45,180 nucleotides of DNA from Opitutales bacterium. Lineage in GTDB: Bacteria; Verrucomicrobiota; Verrucomicrobiia; Opitutales; JAJFLR01. The notes under the pieces were generated by a model that was not told the origin of the DNA, made no database searches, and saw only the letters and a program-made list of their open reading frames with translations. Positions 11,413-20,751 of this stretch are shown one piece after another. Every line of letters begins with the position of its first letter. Position 1 is the stretch's first letter. The stretch spans positions 1 through 45,180 of the forward strand of contig JAJFLR010000098.1 of the NCBI GenBank assembly GCA_021772565.1, read 5' to 3'. The translations under genes were made by a program, and so were the position numbers.

Positions 11413-12567
11413 TCATATTTTTAATTTTTCAATCAATTTTGGAATTTGTTTTAATGGTAAAATGGATATTTCTTTATCAATATCGTATTTAGATTCACCC
11501 GGGTACACTACCCACAAATGATTAAGTTGTAGATCGTTAATTGCAGCTCGCATTGATTTCGATGAGCCTGGAGCGTCTGAATACTTACATTCAAAACCAT
11601 AACGCTTACCGCGAACAGTAGTCAGAATATCAAGTTCAGCGCCTGCATGGGTTCCCCAAAAATAAGTCGATTGTTTGTTTAAACAAGATATCAGTTGTTC
11701 AATCACAAAACCTTCCCATGAAGCACCAATTTTTGGATGGCCAGAAAGATCTGAAAGTGTATCAATACCCAATAAAGAATGCAATAAACCTGAATCACGT
11801 ACATATATTTTCGGCGATTTAACCTGTCGTTTTTTTATATTTTCAAACCATGGCGGCAAAACACGAACCACATAGGCACCCGCAAGTATATCAAGATATC
11901 TCCGAGCTGTATGTTCATTAGCTCCAAGTGCACGGGCAAATTCAGAAGCATTCCAAACTTGTCCATGATAATGCGCAATCATAGTCCAAAAACGTCTCAA
12001 TGTCTCTGCAGGTATGCTAATTCCCAACTGCGGAATATCTCGTTCTAAAAAAGTTCGAACAAAATTTTCACGCCAAAGAGCAGCAGATTGATCATCTTTT
12101 CCTAAAAATGCACGAGGATATCCACCCCGCATCCACAAAGTCTGCCAATTTTCTGCACCAATTTCCAACAAATCAAATCCACCTAAATCTACTATACCCA
12201 CTCTACCAGCCAGCGATTCAGAAACTCCCTTAATTAAATTCGGCGACGCACTGCCAGGCAGTAAAAATTGAGTCTGGTTATTTGAACGATCCAATAAAAC
12301 TCGCAAAGTTTCAAATAGTTGAGGCATCCGCTGTATCTCATCAATTATTACAGTGCCATCCAGGTTCTTTAAAGATAATTCCGGAGACTCAAGTTTTCGC
12401 CGATCAATTGCGCTTTCAAGATCGAAAAAAGTACATTCATTTTCTTCTTTCTCAATATAGCGTGCCAAAGTCGTTTTTCCGCATTGACGCGGTCCAACCA
12501 ACCCGACAGCTGAATGGATGCGAAACAATTCTTTAATGCGCAACAATGCTTCTTTACGCTCAATCAT
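11413..12567 (-). CDS. AAA+ family ATPase with DUF4143 domain
   Basis: A 384-residue member of the widespread ATPase/DUF4143 family, whose physiological role is not settled. The N-terminal ATPase domain shows a Walker A motif GPRQCGKTT near residue 25 and a Walker B motif TVIIDEIQRMP near residue 71, then GSASPNLIKGVSESLAGR, a sensor-like segment typical of this family. A winged-helix-like region follows around 195-235 (NASEFARALGANEHTARRYL). The C-terminal DUF4143 part ends in a PD-(D/E)xK-like pattern: WEGFVIEQLI, then AELDIL and FECKYS. The protein appears complete. It starts at the ATG at 12567, just downstream of a promoter overlapped by a perfect 17-bp inverted repeat. It is convergent with the giant repeat gene. 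Confidence 0.9.
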   Translation of the reverse strand: MIERKEALLRIKELFRIHSAVGLVGPRQCGKTTLARYIEKEENECTFFDLESAIDRRKLESPELSLKNLDGTVIIDEIQRMPQLFETLRVLLDRSNNQTQFLLPGSASPNLIKGVSESLAGRVGIVDLGGFDLLEIGAENWQTLWMRGGYPRAFLGKDDQSAALWRENFVRTFLERDIPQLGISIPAETLRRFWTMIAHYHGQVWNASEFARALGANEHTARRYLDILAGAYVVRVLPPWFENIKKRQVKSPKIYVRDSGLLHSLLGIDTLSDLSGHPKIGASWEGFVIEQLISCLNKQSTYFWGTHAGAELDILTTVRGKRYGFECKYSDAPGSSKSMRAAINDLQLNHLWVVYPGESKYDIDKEISILPLKQIPKLIEKLKI

Positions 12568-12575
12568 ATTATTAA

Positions 12576-12624
12576 ATATTATCCTTGAAAATTAGTATGT
12601 CAATTAATAATTTTCAAGGATAAT
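12576..12624 (-). promoter_or_regulatory. Promoter inside a perfect 17-bp inverted repeat, ATPase gene
   Basis: Arms ATTATCCTTGAAAATTA (12578-12594) and TAATTTTCAAGGATAAT (12608-12624) are perfect reverse complements separated by 13 bases. On the minus strand the spacer holds TTGACA (12603-12598), and TAATAT (12581-12576) overlaps the gene-proximal arm, with a 16-base spacing. The implied start is only two or three bases from the ATG. This arrangement suggests repression by a dimer bound to both arms; the regulator is unknown. Confidence 0.65.
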
Positions 12625-12663
12625 TAGCAAAACAAAATACCGTAATCGCTACGCTAAAAAAAC

Positions 12664-12735
12664 GGAGATGGGACTTTCCAGTCCCATTTTACGATATGAA
12701 ATAACCGGCGACAGGTATGTCACCTCTCCTTTTTT
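12664..12735 (-). repeat. Structured Y-shaped element, copy 1
   Basis: An element of about 72 bp. On the plus strand it has outer arms GGAGA/TCTCC enclosing two hairpins: ATGGGACT-TTCC-AGTCCCAT and GGCGACA-GGTA-TGTCACC. It follows the stop codon of PEP-CTERM tail fragment 1 on the minus strand and is followed there by a T-run, so it may act as a transcription terminator. Copies lie at 12953-13020 and 13244-13315. Confidence 0.75.
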
Positions 12736-12744
12736 AAATTTTTC

Positions 12745-12903
12745 CTAACTCTTAGCTCGGGTTTTATTTCCGGGACGACGGCGGTAATAGGCAAGACCTA
12801 AAGCGCCTAGGCCGAGGGCAGCGGCGTATTCGGATGGTTCTGGGATGTCAGTACCTGTGATACCAATGTTTGCTGATGTTACATAATTACAGCCTAAAAT
12901 TAT
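12745..12903 (-). pseudogene. Silent PEP-CTERM tail fragment 1
   Basis: Minus-strand codons up to the TAG at 12745-12747 encode about 50 residues ending in ITGTDIPEPSEYAAALGLG and GALGLAYYRRRPGNKTRAKS. This is the C-terminus of the PEP-CTERM protein at 13325-14080, with its PEP box, transmembrane segment and basic tail intact. The body and N-terminus are missing, and I find no start codon with a plausible signal peptide. Homology ends at a dispersed GACAGGATT repeat at 12909. The last part of the fragment and its 3' flank are almost identical to the intact gene's. Confidence 0.8.
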
Positions 12904-12908
12904 AAATA

Positions 12909-12938
12909 TTTTTCTGACAGGATTATAACTGGATTTGG
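12909..12938 (+). repeat. Dispersed GACAGGATT repeat, copy 3
   Basis: TTTTTCTGACAGGATTATAA followed by CTGGATTTGG, a diverged copy. It sits exactly at the truncated upstream edge of tail fragment 1. Confidence 0.75.
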
Positions 12939-12952
12939 AAATTGATATTAAA

Positions 12953-13020
12953 GGAGATGGGACTTTCCAGTCCCATATTTCGACATGAAATAACCGGCGA
13001 CAAGAATGTCGCCTCTCCTT
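12953..13020 (-). repeat. Structured Y-shaped element, copy 2
   Basis: Same layout as the copy at 12664, with hairpin GGCGACA-AGAA-TGTCGCC. Here the third stem pair is a Watson-Crick C-G, where the other copies have a wobble T-G when read on the minus strand. The outer arms are AAAGGAGA/TCTCCTTT. It follows the stop codon of tail fragment 2. Confidence 0.75.
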
Positions 13021-13037
13021 TAATATTAAATTCTTTT

Positions 13038-13200
13038 CTAACTCTTTGGACGAGTTTTATTTCCCGGGCGACGACGGTAATAAGCTAGACCTAAAGCGCC
13101 GAGTCCTAAAGCTGCAGCGTATTCGGCTGGCTCGGGGATTGCTGTGACTGTGATACCAATGTTTACTGATGTTTCATATCTACCGCCTAGAATATTAGAT
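13038..13200 (-). pseudogene. Silent PEP-CTERM tail fragment 2
   Basis: Minus-strand codons up to the TAG at 13038-13040 encode about 53 residues: ILGGRYETSVNIGITVTA, then IPEPAEYAAALGLGALGLAY and YRRRPGNKTRPKS. It aligns with tail fragment 1 and with the end of the intact gene next to it. Only the sorting tail and the last beta-strand region are present. The upstream edge meets the dispersed repeat at 13203. The stop codons of fragment 1, fragment 2 and the intact gene lie 293 and 285-287 bases apart, so the three form a tandem array. Confidence 0.8.
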
Positions 13201-13202
13201 AA

Positions 13203-13233
13203 TCTTTCTGACCGGATTAACAGGATTAGGGAA
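13203..13233 (+). repeat. Dispersed GACAGGATT repeat, copy 4
   Basis: TCTTTCTGACCGGATTAACA followed by GGATTAGGGA, at the truncated upstream edge of tail fragment 2. Confidence 0.75.
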
Positions 13234-13243
13234 TTGAAATAAA

Positions 13244-13315
13244 GGAGATGGGACTTTCCAGTCCCATTTTTTGATATAAAATAACCGGCGACAGGTATGT
13301 CACCTCTCCTTTTTT
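13244..13315 (-). repeat. Structured Y-shaped element, copy 3
   Basis: Follows the stop of the intact PEP-CTERM gene. Together with the adjoining gene end (13244-13354) it differs from copy 1 (12664-12774) at only three of 111 positions. Confidence 0.78.
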
Positions 13316-13324
13316 AAATTTTTC

Positions 13325-14080
13325 CTAACTCTTAGCTCGGGTTTTATTTCCGGGTCGTCTACGATAATAGGCAAGGCCTAATGCGCCGAGTCCGAGAGCA
13401 GCTGCATAGTGGGCTGGTTCGGGGACTGGAGCTGCTGTTACAGTAATATTATTCTCTGTATCTTCAAATACACCTGACAGAAATGTCATCGTCGAAGTTG
13501 AAGCTACCCAACTCACTCGAATAAAACCATAATTCCCATCACCATTCCTAAAAGCAATTGCACCATTGGGTCGATCTACTTGCCATTGATCCGACCCCAA
13601 ATTACCATAGCCTACATCATAGACAAGAGTATCGTAAATAAACTGATTGGCCTTTGTAAATCCCACAGAATTTAAGTTAATATTAAATCCAACAGATAAA
13701 TAGCGTGGAACTTTTGTAGAATTACGTGTAACATATCCAATTCTAGCACCGTATACACCAGTAATCATCACGTCTCCAAGACCAACACCACCACCATTTA
13801 CCCATAGTTCATCATTTGAATCACTACTTTGCGTTAAATCTTGTCTCACTCTATCAGGATCTATCGTTCCCACCCCATTTTTACTGATAGATTCATTTTC
13901 AATTGTAGAAAGATCCAAAGCCGTTAAATTAGCATTGGAATCTGTAGTAATTCCAATCAGTCCTGATAGAAGCATCACACTTTGCGATCCCAGTGAATAT
14001 TTTGTTAATCTATGCTTTATTGAACTGTAATGATTAGATCTAAAGATCATTTTTTGATTTTTTTTGTTCTTACTTTTCAT
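13325..14080 (-). CDS. PEP-CTERM sorting-domain protein A
   Basis: A secreted protein of about 251 residues with an exosortase-type C-terminal tail: PVPEPAHYAAALGLGALGLA, then YYRRRPGNKTRAKS (PEP box, transmembrane helix, arginine cluster). The N-terminus has a long basic n-region, then the hydrophobic segment SVMLLSGLIGITTDSNAN, which resembles a signal peptide. The body is beta-rich (VYGARIGYVTRNSTKVPRYL, GAIAFRNGDGNYGFIRVSWV) and closely matches the paralog at 18606-19346; I do not recognise the domain. An upstream ATG at 14089 overlaps the AAAGGA ribosome site. The ATG at 14080 sits properly after AAAGGA and matches the paralog start, so I choose it. This is one of the few genes here with a good Shine-Dalgarno. 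Two tail-only copies lie just downstream. Confidence 0.85.
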   Translation of the reverse strand: MKSKNKKNQKMIFRSNHYSSIKHRLTKYSLGSQSVMLLSGLIGITTDSNANLTALDLSTIENESISKNGVGTIDPDRVRQDLTQSSDSNDELWVNGGGVGLGDVMITGVYGARIGYVTRNSTKVPRYLSVGFNINLNSVGFTKANQFIYDTLVYDVGYGNLGSDQWQVDRPNGAIAFRNGDGNYGFIRVSWVASTSTMTFLSGVFEDTENNITVTAAPVPEPAHYAAALGLGALGLAYYRRRPGNKTRAKS

Positions 14081-14124
14081 TCTATTCATCCTTTCTTTTA
14101 GTTAGTTTTGTTAGTTGTATTGTT

Positions 14125-14223: not shown

Positions 14224-14436
14224 TTGAGACGAAGTCTCTTTGGAGTGCGGTGGCCTTCGGCGTGAGCTCAGTCGCACGCATGAAGTAGCTTTTGGCTAGA
14301 AATACCAAAGCTTTCAAATCGCATTTAATCCTTAATGTATTTAAAAGAACTAAGCATACCGTTTTAAAGCGGTGATGAATCAGACGTTCGGCTGAGCTCA
14401 GTTGTTGCCCAGCACTCCAAAGAAGCTGAGCTTCAA
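14224..14436. repeat. Palindromic mobile-like element, copy 1
   Basis: About 213 bp bounded by imperfect terminal inverted repeats ending in CTTTGGAGTGC and its complement GCACTCCAAAG. Each outer end is a small hairpin: GAGAC-GAA-GTCTC on the left and GAAGCT-C-AGCTTC on the right. The related 162-bp copy at 19565-19726 lies upstream of the paralogous PEP-CTERM gene. No transposase; MITE-like by structure only. An open frame across it (14111-14485) is not considered a gene. Confidence 0.6.
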
Positions 14437-14749: not shown

Positions 14750-15367
14750 ATGAAAAAAATACTGCAAATTGTACTCTTATTATCATTACTACCAAAGCTG
14801 CATGCCGTTGTACTTGTTAGCAACATAACCAATGCTACACCGTTTGGCTCATCGGTAGCTGATACTAGCTGGCTAGCTGACAGTTTTACTACTGACGCAC
14901 AGAGTTACACGCTCAATAATGTTAATGTTGATATGGATGCGACGACCGGTGGTGGAAATTTTGTTCTATCAATTTTTGATGATAACTCAGGTGAGCCGGG
15001 TAGCCTGATTACAAATGGCACTTTATCTGGCGAAACCAATCCTAATTTGGATCAGGTTTATACATACATAACTACAGCTACCGTCAACCTGGCAGCCAGC
15101 ACAACATACTGGGTTGTGGCTGCAGAAACATTAGGCACCAACTTCTTTAGTTGGAGTGCAACATTTGATGCGGCTGAATCAGGAACTGGAACCATAGGCG
15201 ATGTCGGCAAATTTTCAAGCAATCAAGGTGTAAGTTGGAATAATAACACCATTATCCAAAGATTTTCGGTTGATGTAACAGCAGTGCCGGAGCCTTCAGA
15301 CTATGCAGCCATATTTGGTATTGGAGCTATCGTTTTAGTTTATTATCGAAGACGTTTCAAAAGTTAA
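14750..15367 (+). CDS. PEP-CTERM protein, choice-of-anchor R-like, copy 1
   Basis: A 205-residue secreted protein. Residues 1-19 form a signal peptide (MKKILQIVLLLSLLPKLHA). The body matches what I know as the choice-of-anchor R type: NITNATPFGSSVADTSWLAD near the start, the strand SFTTDAQSYTLNNV, and a jelly-roll-like core with FVLSIFDDNSGEPGSL and TYWVVAAETLG. The C-terminus is a sorting tail: VPEPSDYAA, a hydrophobic helix, then YYRRRFKS. The cargo would be exported by Sec, then cut or anchored by an exosortase encoded elsewhere. The near-identical paralog at 16557-17174 shows a duplication, with a minus-strand gene pair between the copies. There is no Shine-Dalgarno. Function of the mature protein is unknown. 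Confidence 0.88.
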   Translation: MKKILQIVLLLSLLPKLHAVVLVSNITNATPFGSSVADTSWLADSFTTDAQSYTLNNVNVDMDATTGGGNFVLSIFDDNSGEPGSLITNGTLSGETNPNLDQVYTYITTATVNLAASTTYWVVAAETLGTNFFSWSATFDAAESGTGTIGDVGKFSSNQGVSWNNNTIIQRFSVDVTAVPEPSDYAAIFGIGAIVLVYYRRRFKS

Positions 15368-16556: not shown

Positions 16557-17174
16557 ATGAAAAAAATACTCTATGTAGTCCTATTATTATCGATAATGCA
16601 GCAGCTGAATGCAACTATACTTGTTAGCAACATAACCAATGCTACGCCATTTCCCTCAGCAGTATCTGATGGCGACTGGCTGGCTGACAGTTTTACTACA
16701 GATGCACAGAGTTATACACTCAATAATGTCAAGCTTGACATGGATGCTACGACTGGTGGTGGAAATTTTGTAGTATCAATTTTTGATGATAATACAGGAG
16801 AACCAGGCAGCCTGTTAACTAACGGCACACTATCAGGCGAAACAAATCCAAACCTGGATCAGGTTTATACGTACATTACTACCGCTGCTTTCAATCTGGC
16901 TGCTAACACTACCTATTGGGTTGTTGCAGCAGAAACATTAAATACCAACTTCTTTTTTTGGAGTGCCACCTTTGATACGACTGAATCAGGTGATGGAGCT
17001 ATTGGTGATGTCGGTAAATTTTCAAGCAACCAAGGTGTAAGTTGGAATGATAATACCATTCTGCAAAGATTTTCTGTTGATGTTACAGCAGTACCGGAAC
17101 CGTCCGATTATGCAGCAATATTTGGAATCTGCGCGATCGTTATTACTTTTTATCTGAGACGCAGAAAAAATTAG
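16557..17174 (+). CDS. PEP-CTERM protein, choice-of-anchor R-like, copy 2
   Basis: A 205-residue paralog of the gene at 14750, with the same length and the same layout: signal peptide (MKKILYVVLLLSIMQQLNA), choice-of-anchor R-like body and sorting tail VPEPSDYAA, hydrophobic helix, then YLRRRKN. Most of the body is identical or conservatively changed. The main differences lie in the signal peptide, the segment FPSAVSDGDW and the end of the tail. The coding sequences differ at many third positions, so the duplication is not very recent. No Shine-Dalgarno. A dispersed repeat follows at 17269, as after copy 1. Confidence 0.88.
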   Translation: MKKILYVVLLLSIMQQLNATILVSNITNATPFPSAVSDGDWLADSFTTDAQSYTLNNVKLDMDATTGGGNFVVSIFDDNTGEPGSLLTNGTLSGETNPNLDQVYTYITTAAFNLAANTTYWVVAAETLNTNFFFWSATFDTTESGDGAIGDVGKFSSNQGVSWNDNTILQRFSVDVTAVPEPSDYAAIFGICAIVITFYLRRRKN

Positions 17175-18605: not shown

Positions 18606-19346
18606 CTAATTCTTAGGCCGAGATTTATTTCCCGGACGACGACGGTAATAAGCAAGACCTAATGCACCGAGGCCAAGGGCTGCAGCGTATTCGACAGGTT
18701 CGGGGACGGCGGTGACAGTGATAACGGCAGCAGGAGTATCATCGAATTCACCACTAAGGAAAGTCATTGTAGAAGTTGCCGCAACCCAACTAACACGAAG
18801 ATACCCGTATTCCCCATCCCCATTACGGATAGCAATTGCACCATTTGGTCGATCGACATTCCAATCCCCCAAATTTCCTTCGCCAGGAATATAAAAATAT
18901 GTTCGGTATAATATATTATTCGCTTTTGTAAATCCAACAGAGTACAGATTAATATTAAAGCCAACAGGTAAATAGCTCGGAACCTTAGTGTCACCGCCCG
19001 GTATTTCATATCCAATCCTAGCACCGTAAACACCAGCAATCCACATTTTATCCTGTGCATCTCCACCATTTATCCAAAGTTGATCATCAGTATCACTACT
19101 TTGTGTAAGATATTGTTTAGTTACATTTTCTCCTAAGGTACCAGTTCCACCCTTACTTATAGTTTGATTTTCAATAACAGGAATATCCAATGCCGTAATA
19201 TTAGCATTGGAATCTGTTGTAATTCCAATCAATCCCGATAGCACCATTATACTCTGCGATCCCAGAGAATATTTCATTAATCTTTGCCTTAACAAATGGC
19301 ATTGACTGGAACCGTTAGCCATTTTCGTACTTCTATTATTTTTCAT
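18606..19346 (-). CDS. PEP-CTERM sorting-domain protein B
   Basis: A 246-residue paralog of protein A at 13325. The matching parts include the long basic start, the hydrophobic QSIMVLSGLIGITTDSNAN segment, the body (VYGARIGYEIPGGDTKVPSY, GAIAIRNGDGEYGYLRVSWV) and the tail: VPEPVEYAAALGLGALGLAY, then YRRRPGNKSRPKN. The paralogy extends into the 5' leader, which has the same AAAGGA ribosome site and the hairpin at 19392-19416, and into the palindromic element upstream. So the duplicated unit covered gene plus regulatory DNA. The body domain is not recognised. Export by Sec and processing by an exosortase are inferred from the tail. Confidence 0.85.
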   Translation of the reverse strand: MKNNRSTKMANGSSQCHLLRQRLMKYSLGSQSIMVLSGLIGITTDSNANITALDIPVIENQTISKGGTGTLGENVTKQYLTQSSDTDDQLWINGGDAQDKMWIAGVYGARIGYEIPGGDTKVPSYLPVGFNINLYSVGFTKANNILYRTYFYIPGEGNLGDWNVDRPNGAIAIRNGDGEYGYLRVSWVAATSTMTFLSGEFDDTPAAVITVTAVPEPVEYAAALGLGALGLAYYRRRPGNKSRPKN

Positions 19347-19416: not shown

Positions 19417-19564
19417 GTTAAATTTTGTGAGTAAGGCATATCGCGGATGTGCGATTCTTGGATCGTGAGCTCTGTCGAACGGCTGCACATGCCTACCCAA
19501 TTCAGAAAAATAAAAGTCATGTCAGGACTAAAATAATTTCTCGAATTAGAATTCTTTATAATAT

Positions 19565-19726
19565 TTGAGACGAAGTCTCTTTGGAGTGCGGCGGCCTGAC
19601 GCCGCTTTTTGATCAAAGAAGCAGAGTCGTTAATGTAACAAATAGACCTAACGTATTCCAGCAATGTTACACATATCGTTTGAAAGCGGTGCTGAAGCCC
19701 CGCACTCCAAAGAAGCTGCGCTTCAT
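19565..19726. repeat. Palindromic mobile-like element, copy 2
   Basis: About 162 bp with the same terminal inverted repeats as the element at 14224 (hairpin GAGAC-GAA-GTCTC plus CTTTGGAGTGC; the far end has GCACTCCAAAG plus a GAAGCTGCGCTTC hairpin). An internal hairpin GCGGC-CTGAC-GCCGC is visible. The central part is diverged and shorter than in copy 1. Confidence 0.6.
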
Positions 19727-20751
19727 AAAAAAAATCGAACAATGCAGATTTAACATCCGGGTCGTCTCTACCATGTGGCATTTTCCCAATCGAGGTAGGG
19801 ATGCATGTCCGTTCGGCTGAGCTCACGACCGAATGCCCTATGCATCCGTTTGTTAGTCGCAAATATCGCTTCAAGGTAAATTCGTTTTCGGAGGATCCCG
19901 ATTTTACATCGGGGTCGTCCCTACCCTTAAGAATCGCCAATTTCAAGCGATGATTACAATCAAACAGAAAGCTTGACCGCAGGGAATTGATTGCAGGAAG
20001 AAACGGCATTATACTTCCCGTTCTCCCGTTCTCCAAGTCTCAAGACTCATAGTGAGTGTAAAATTTTTGAAAATATTGTTAAAGCTGAAAAACATTTAAA
20101 AAAAGATATAAACGCTTACCCTATTTGCCTATTCATTGTCAAGTTTGGAAATTATAAACCAATGGGAATCTATGAGATAGGGTTCTAGCTCTTATTATTT
20201 TAAACCAGTTAGAGCATCTGCCATAATTTATTGATTCACAAAATCTAACGGTTTTCCTTACGCCAATTTTTTACGACAGTATCCATTGCAACCTGCAATT
20301 CTTTATCTACCGGTATTTCAGAAATTTTATCCAATATATTATTATGCCACTACCGAGCAAAGCGACACCTCAACGAGCAAAGCGAGAATAACAATGAAAC
20401 ACAGATTGAACACAGATTTTTTTTAAACTAATAATTATCATTTATTGTCGATAATTATTTTTGAATTTTTCATTTTAACACTTTATGATTATAAATTTAA
20501 TAGATAAATAGAGGATATCGTAATTTTTTATTTTTTTACACAAATGTCTTCAATAAAGGGGCGAGGCAATCCACATGCTGTTACAAAATCTGTTTAATCC
20601 GTGGCCAAATTAATATATTACAAATTGGTATGAACTATTAGTATCTCTTTGTGGTAGGAAGTTACCTATTATTTTATTCAGATAGATTGCCACGCCCACA
20701 TTCGTGAGCTCGCAATGACAATATCATTATTTAGAGATTAGATTCAAAGCA
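19727..20751. other. Gene-free region rich in short palindromes
   Basis: I see no convincing gene; the open frame at 19377-20036 consists of repeats. Contents include two copies of a GGGTCGTC-type motif (near 19760 and 19912), the second preceded by the hairpin CCCGAT-TTTAC-ATCGGG (19898-19914). A GGATGCAT...ATGCATCC pair encloses TTCGGCTGAGCTCACGACCGA near 19798-19848. The CCACTACCGAG/CGAGCAAAGCGAG repeat recurs at 20347-20395. An inverted pair GGCGAGGCAATC (near 20561) and GATTGCCACGCCC (near 20686) lies before the LolA-like gene. Confidence 0.5.

Follow-up and report, generated by a model that had tools for sequence, protein, structure and literature searches.

Introduction

Concerted evolution and ectopic gene conversion in multigene families that leave solo remnants produce homogeneous ends, a birth and death of members, and pseudogenes that are refreshed by live copies. 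The substrate families of the PEP-CTERM/exosortase system undergo rapid expansion by paralogy within lineages, and their members are often duplicated and lost (Haft et al., 2006, PMC1569441); recombination, shuffling and pseudogenes do not turn up in a word search of the paper. The vls cassettes of Borrelia have a variable centre and share about 90% identity with the live one (PMC11499132).

The window analysed here is one entire contig (C122) of 45,180 nucleotides from an apparently draft Opitutales genome of 3.57 Mb in 124 contigs. In it, two PEP-CTERM tails without a start codon adjoin an intact PEP-CTERM gene (13325-14089, minus strand) on its downstream side. As in the described PEP-CTERM/exosortase families (PMC1569441; TIGR02595/PF07589), the C-terminus has a PEP box, a membrane helix and an arginine cluster, and exosortases are encoded in the genome (six matches to PF09721 over the cut-off). 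Unlike those families, this one has tandem tail-only copies, and its diverse cores lie between constant non-coding ends. The locus resembles vls (PMC11499132) in that promoter-less partial copies with preserved frames lie beside a live gene and share sequence with it in segments. The silent copies here, however, carry the constant end. In systems of the vls and pil type, transfer runs one way, from the silent to the expressed copy, and switching is seen among strains or within a population. Homogeneous ends, turnover of members and refreshed pseudogenes are also features of families in concerted evolution, which differ from the present case in that bacterial sorting-signal tails are involved here and a single tract is statistically clear. 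Our preferred reading, to which we give a probability of about 0.6, is that the silent tails are solo 3'-end remnants (linker, tail and 3' flank) of a recombining family with constant ends and variable cores, and that they are refreshed by conversion.

Layout of the tail array

All parts of the array lie on the minus strand. The intact gene is an open reading frame of 254 amino acids with a type-A core. Its PF07589 score of 22.2 bits in the genome search is over the cut-off; the other single scores with TIGR02595/PF07589 are below the curated cut-off. The gene has a start codon, and its N-terminal segment is conserved in the family. Its tail, from the PEP box to the stop, spans 13325-13423 and is followed by the 73-nt hairpin element of unit 3 (13240-13312; repeat D3), which forms three hairpins (-30.1 kcal/mol, z -5.25). 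Unit 2 begins with a leader at 13194-13239, recognised by pattern census and alignment as a copy of a dispersed repeat, with AATCCTGTTAATCCGGTC at 13210-13227. A start-less type-B linker follows at 13137-13193 (ILGGRYETSVNIGITVTAI, from translation and alignment), then the silent tail at 13038-13136, with its frame intact up to the stop, and a 73-nt hairpin element at 12949-13021 (a repeat copy; fold z -7.16). In unit 1, the leader is a degenerate copy of the dispersed repeat by alignment (12901-12945) and the linker is decayed (12844-12900, ILGCNYVTSANIGITGTDI). The silent tail of this unit (12745-12843) has an intact frame and a peptide equal to the family consensus, and its 73-nt hairpin element (12660-12732) is followed by a terminator-like T-run.

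The first-pass annotation had described two tail-only copies that keep the PEP box, helix and arginines in frame to the stop, in tandem with the intact gene at a period of about 290 bp. Both statements hold. The frames, open over 103 codons in unit 1 and 91 in unit 2, encode PEPSEYAAALGLGALGLAYYRRRPGNKTRAKS and PEPAEYAAALGLGALGLAYYRRRPGNKTRPKS respectively, each up to its stop codon. The PEP box, hydrophobic helix and basic cluster stand at the extreme C-terminus of all three tails as full 24-position matches. The array is a direct repeat in three copies, in which tails are spaced by 293 and 287 nt and hairpin elements by 289 and 291 nt. The repeat, tail and structured element reported for each unit are present, and a 57-nt linker has to be added, giving the order dispersed-repeat leader, linker, tail and hairpin element. 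The linkers are of the type ILGG.YE..., from another subfamily than that of the intact neighbour, and the units are therefore not plain copies of the present 3' end of the neighbouring gene. Units 1 and 2 have no in-frame ATG, GTG or TTG and no signal peptide, and thus lack the start and N-terminal signal peptide of a PEP-CTERM protein.

The full 73-nt element occurs in the genome only in these three copies, while its second half alone recurs elsewhere. Its fold on the coding strand is much more stable than those of shuffled sequences (z -4.0 to -7.2), and terminator-like matches exceed the shuffle rate. In Rfam, the element has no family above threshold, only weak, chance-level matches below the gathering scores. 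In the whole genome there are 22 copies of the dispersed repeat (AATCCTGTTAATCCTGTC type), and the reversed control has none.

Several other features lie around the array. A 20-bp AT-rich inverted repeat, 95% complementary and overlying promoter-like matches, is located at 12578-12624, between the array and an AAA/DUF4143 ATPase gene (11413-12567). The closest paralogue of the intact gene (18606-19346, minus strand) has a core of 64% amino acid identity; its 3' flank differs from that of the intact gene and contains no hairpin element. A palindromic repeat is located upstream of both type-A PEP-CTERM genes (14224-14436 and 19560-19742), and parts of it also precede family genes on other contigs. 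Two PEP-CTERM genes of a different type (14750-15367 and 16557-17174) resemble each other, encode 205 amino acids each and are both followed by the dispersed CTGACAGGATTAACAGG-type repeat. A low-complexity open reading frame at 888-1448 is built from SAICYLPSAICH-like repeats.

Substitutions and probable sequence exchange in the silent tails

The start-less frames had been described as undamaged, with substitution ratios proposed as a check, and the ratios agree with this. Over 96 nt, the tails of units 1 and 2 differ by 16 synonymous and 3 non-synonymous changes (p=3e-7 against neutral), a low Ka. At the flank rate, linker included, 11.8 non-synonymous changes would be expected, so that damage is below the neutral expectation (p=0.003). 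The silent tails are not drifting freely. Their synonymous sites differ at 16 of 26 positions (62%), whereas only 21 of 133 bases (16%) differ in the leader and hairpin around them (Fisher p=4e-6). The unit tails are as diverged as those of live paralogues (median Ks 1.43). Since live paralogue pairs likewise show more synonymous divergence in the tail than divergence in the 3' flank, the units resemble live tails in their behaviour.

Purifying selection accounts for the scarce amino acid changes but not for the synonymous excess. We infer that both patterns would be accounted for by tail DNA received from other live copies of the family. The main alternative for the excess is that constrained or homogenised flanks could partly produce it. 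If the tails or hairpins were functional in place, for example through rare-start translation or as 3' UTR or terminator elements, a low Ka, very stable hairpins and terminator-like matches above the shuffle rate would fit. We nevertheless regard such function as very improbable, given that units 1 and 2 have neither a usual start nor a signal peptide, that the 73-nt element has no Rfam family above threshold, and that selection alone cannot lift synonymous divergence above that of the flanks.

A tract of 76 identical bases is common to unit 1 (12699-12774) and the intact gene (13279-13354, its last 9 codons and 3' flank), both on the minus strand, and skips unit 2 (permutation p=5e-5). It is flanked by divergent sequence at both ends and is the longest identical run of all family pairs. 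With the paralogue at 18606 as reference, there is no consistent nearest partner among the units. From these sequence patterns we infer ectopic gene conversion, in one direction or the other. Conversion is statistically clear for one pair only, unit 1 and the intact gene. In coding tails genome-wide, haplotype sharing is not above the codon-shuffle null. Genome-wide homogenisation of tails was considered and rejected: 42 coding-tail pairs have identical runs of at least 20 nt, with 31 expected and a null maximum of 51, which is not significant.

The tandem order, the regular period and the leader and hairpin common to the units would also follow from a plain tandem duplication of the 3' gene end, too recent for damage and with neither conversion nor selection. 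Such an event is unlikely in view of the 62% synonymous difference in the tails against 16% in the flanks, the low Ka between the unit tails, the type-B linkers unlike that of the neighbouring gene, and the 76-nt tract that bypasses the middle unit.

In the reading that we prefer, a large PEP-CTERM family would turn over through duplication, deletion and recombination, and the silent tails would be its solo 3' ends. A unit of 290 bp (tail, hairpin element and dispersed repeat) would have been duplicated in tandem beside the live gene, and its tail part would then have exchanged sequence with live paralogues through ectopic gene conversion. Conversion would clear the tail of damage and at the same time bring in synonymous differences; linker and leader would drift. 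The open frames of the silent tails could thus persist without any function of their own. Remnants kept by gene conversion, the second option of the first-pass annotation, are the best fit to the low Ka, the 76-nt tract and the other solo tails described below.

Isolated tails and pseudogenes elsewhere in the genome

A profile of the tails finds more than 100 candidate places in the genome, and at least four further isolated tails were recognised. The tail at C33:48936 is intact and begins at the same ILGG point as units 1 and 2. That at C71:307 is intact as well, on a contig that starts 247 nt upstream. Only part of a tail, in decayed form, is left at C42:12975 and at C57:18908. Deletion of the core is evident at C33 and C42, where the upstream flank of the family lies almost immediately before the tail. 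Three pseudogenes, C61 with an in-frame TAG and C113 and C57:28360 with frameshifts, show turnover in the family.

Deletions of this type raise the possibility that the two units go back to separate genes that were live until recently, each having lost its core at the same point and keeping a codon pattern that is a legacy of functional times. C33 and C42 show such deletions, C33 from the same ILGG point, and the unit tails are as diverged as live paralogues. On the other hand, identical deletions would have had to occur twice to give both units the same leader and junction, and the unit-1 linker is decayed (ILGCNYVTSANIGITGTD) while the unit-1 tail is perfect. This history seems quite unlikely to us.

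The genome-wide search for isolated tails, which had been suggested as the check on a role as donors, with damage in orthologous tails or the absence of further isolated tails counting against it, gave a divided result: further tails exist and C33 and C71 are intact, but C42 and C57 are decayed and C33 and C42 are deletion scars. As silent donor cassettes, the units would supply the adjacent live gene with new tails and hairpin 3' ends by recombination. Consistent with donors, the frames are open without starts, the 76-nt tract is common to unit 1 and the live gene, and the live gene combines a type-A core with the 3' end of the array, unlike its closest core relative at 18606. As in vls- and pil-type systems, units 1 and 2 are silent partial copies with open frames and without expression signals. 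In those systems, however, the silent copies hold the variable part, whereas the units hold the near-invariant tail and it is the core that varies. A tail swap would have almost no coding effect because the tails are the constant part of a family of about 40 members. No comparable tail array was found elsewhere in this genome or among the sampled tails of G015, G020 and G035, and the other solo tails include decayed copies and deletion scars. The proposal of donors of new tails therefore fares poorly, with tails near-invariant, copies decayed or scarred and haplotypes unshared beyond the null, and we think that such a role is improbable.

Constant ends and variable cores

By sequence, the genome contains about 40 paralogues of the intact gene. 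Tail peptides hardly vary within the family, and it is the core that differs between members. In many paralogues, non-coding ends that are 75-95% identical enclose synonymously saturated cores. In the pair C20_10405/C20_8262, identity is 0.85-0.97 in the 5' flank and signal, 0.33-0.57 in most of the core, and 0.88-1.00 in the tail and the first 160 bases of the 3' flank; the 3' flank is 90% identical across 401 bases. Pairs with 3' flanks 74-94% identical are near saturation at four-fold sites of the core. Similarity in the core shows no relation to that in the 5' flank (rho 0.07), and the two flanks correlate with rho 0.25. Across the family, both ends, comprising 5' flank with signal and tail with 3' flank, are shared around a diverse mature core. 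The maximum identity between any two cores is 64%, and this argues against recent in-genome copying of cores. It leaves end homogenisation, reciprocal exchange or import as possible sources of the pattern. Paralogous PEP-CTERM genes with near-identical non-coding ends and strongly diverged cores are found at G000 C20:8169-10984, C47:94474-97000 and C50:16261-17486, and the region upstream of C47_94474 is present again at about ten further members of the family.

Nine of a further 34 genomes in the order had matches, all weak (best E about 1e-5), and none of the 34 carries the same family; the same-family search returned this genome alone, and a single-protein search of GTDB contigs found no close relatives. 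In two genomes of the same order, 3' flanks are not strongly shared except in a single pair of repeats, and clear tail arrays are absent. A further scan of GTDB contigs found an unrelated PEP-CTERM family in the Limisphaerales MAG bin4_1_edit (G035). Among its 15 members, the median identity over those pairs that match is 90% in the 3' flank and 97% in the 5' flank, to be read with caution as several contigs end near family genes and near-identical ends may be mis-assembled. Ka and Ks are 0.04 and 0.13 in the tails of this family and 0.48 and 0.36 in its cores. No tail array is present in bin4_1_edit.

Constant sorting ends around diverse cores are a more interesting lead than the tail array itself, and no report of them was found in the open-access papers searched. 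With this pattern in two unrelated families, the solo-tail scars and one conversion tract, whole-core recombination between fixed sorting ends becomes testable. More tentatively, and with the odds rather against it, the exosortase-sorted PEP-CTERM proteins of some Verrucomicrobiota may form a recombining repertoire, in which the ends for secretion and anchoring, and their non-coding flanks, are kept constant by conversion, cores are exchanged and diversified by selection, and solo tails are scars and occasional partners. Solo tails are also a warning that tail-based searches over-count PEP-CTERM proteins.

Core divergence in the Limisphaerales family

In three independent young pairs of bin4_1_edit, pooled, the core shows Nd/N of 0.145 against Sd/S of 0.076 (p=2e-4). 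Mutagenesis by a diversity-generating retroelement was considered for this genome and rejected, as the changes are not adenine-specific. In the pairs L217/L218, L239/L246 and L237/L242, core Ka is above Ks (0.12-0.25 against 0.04-0.15), which suggests diversifying selection on mature domains.
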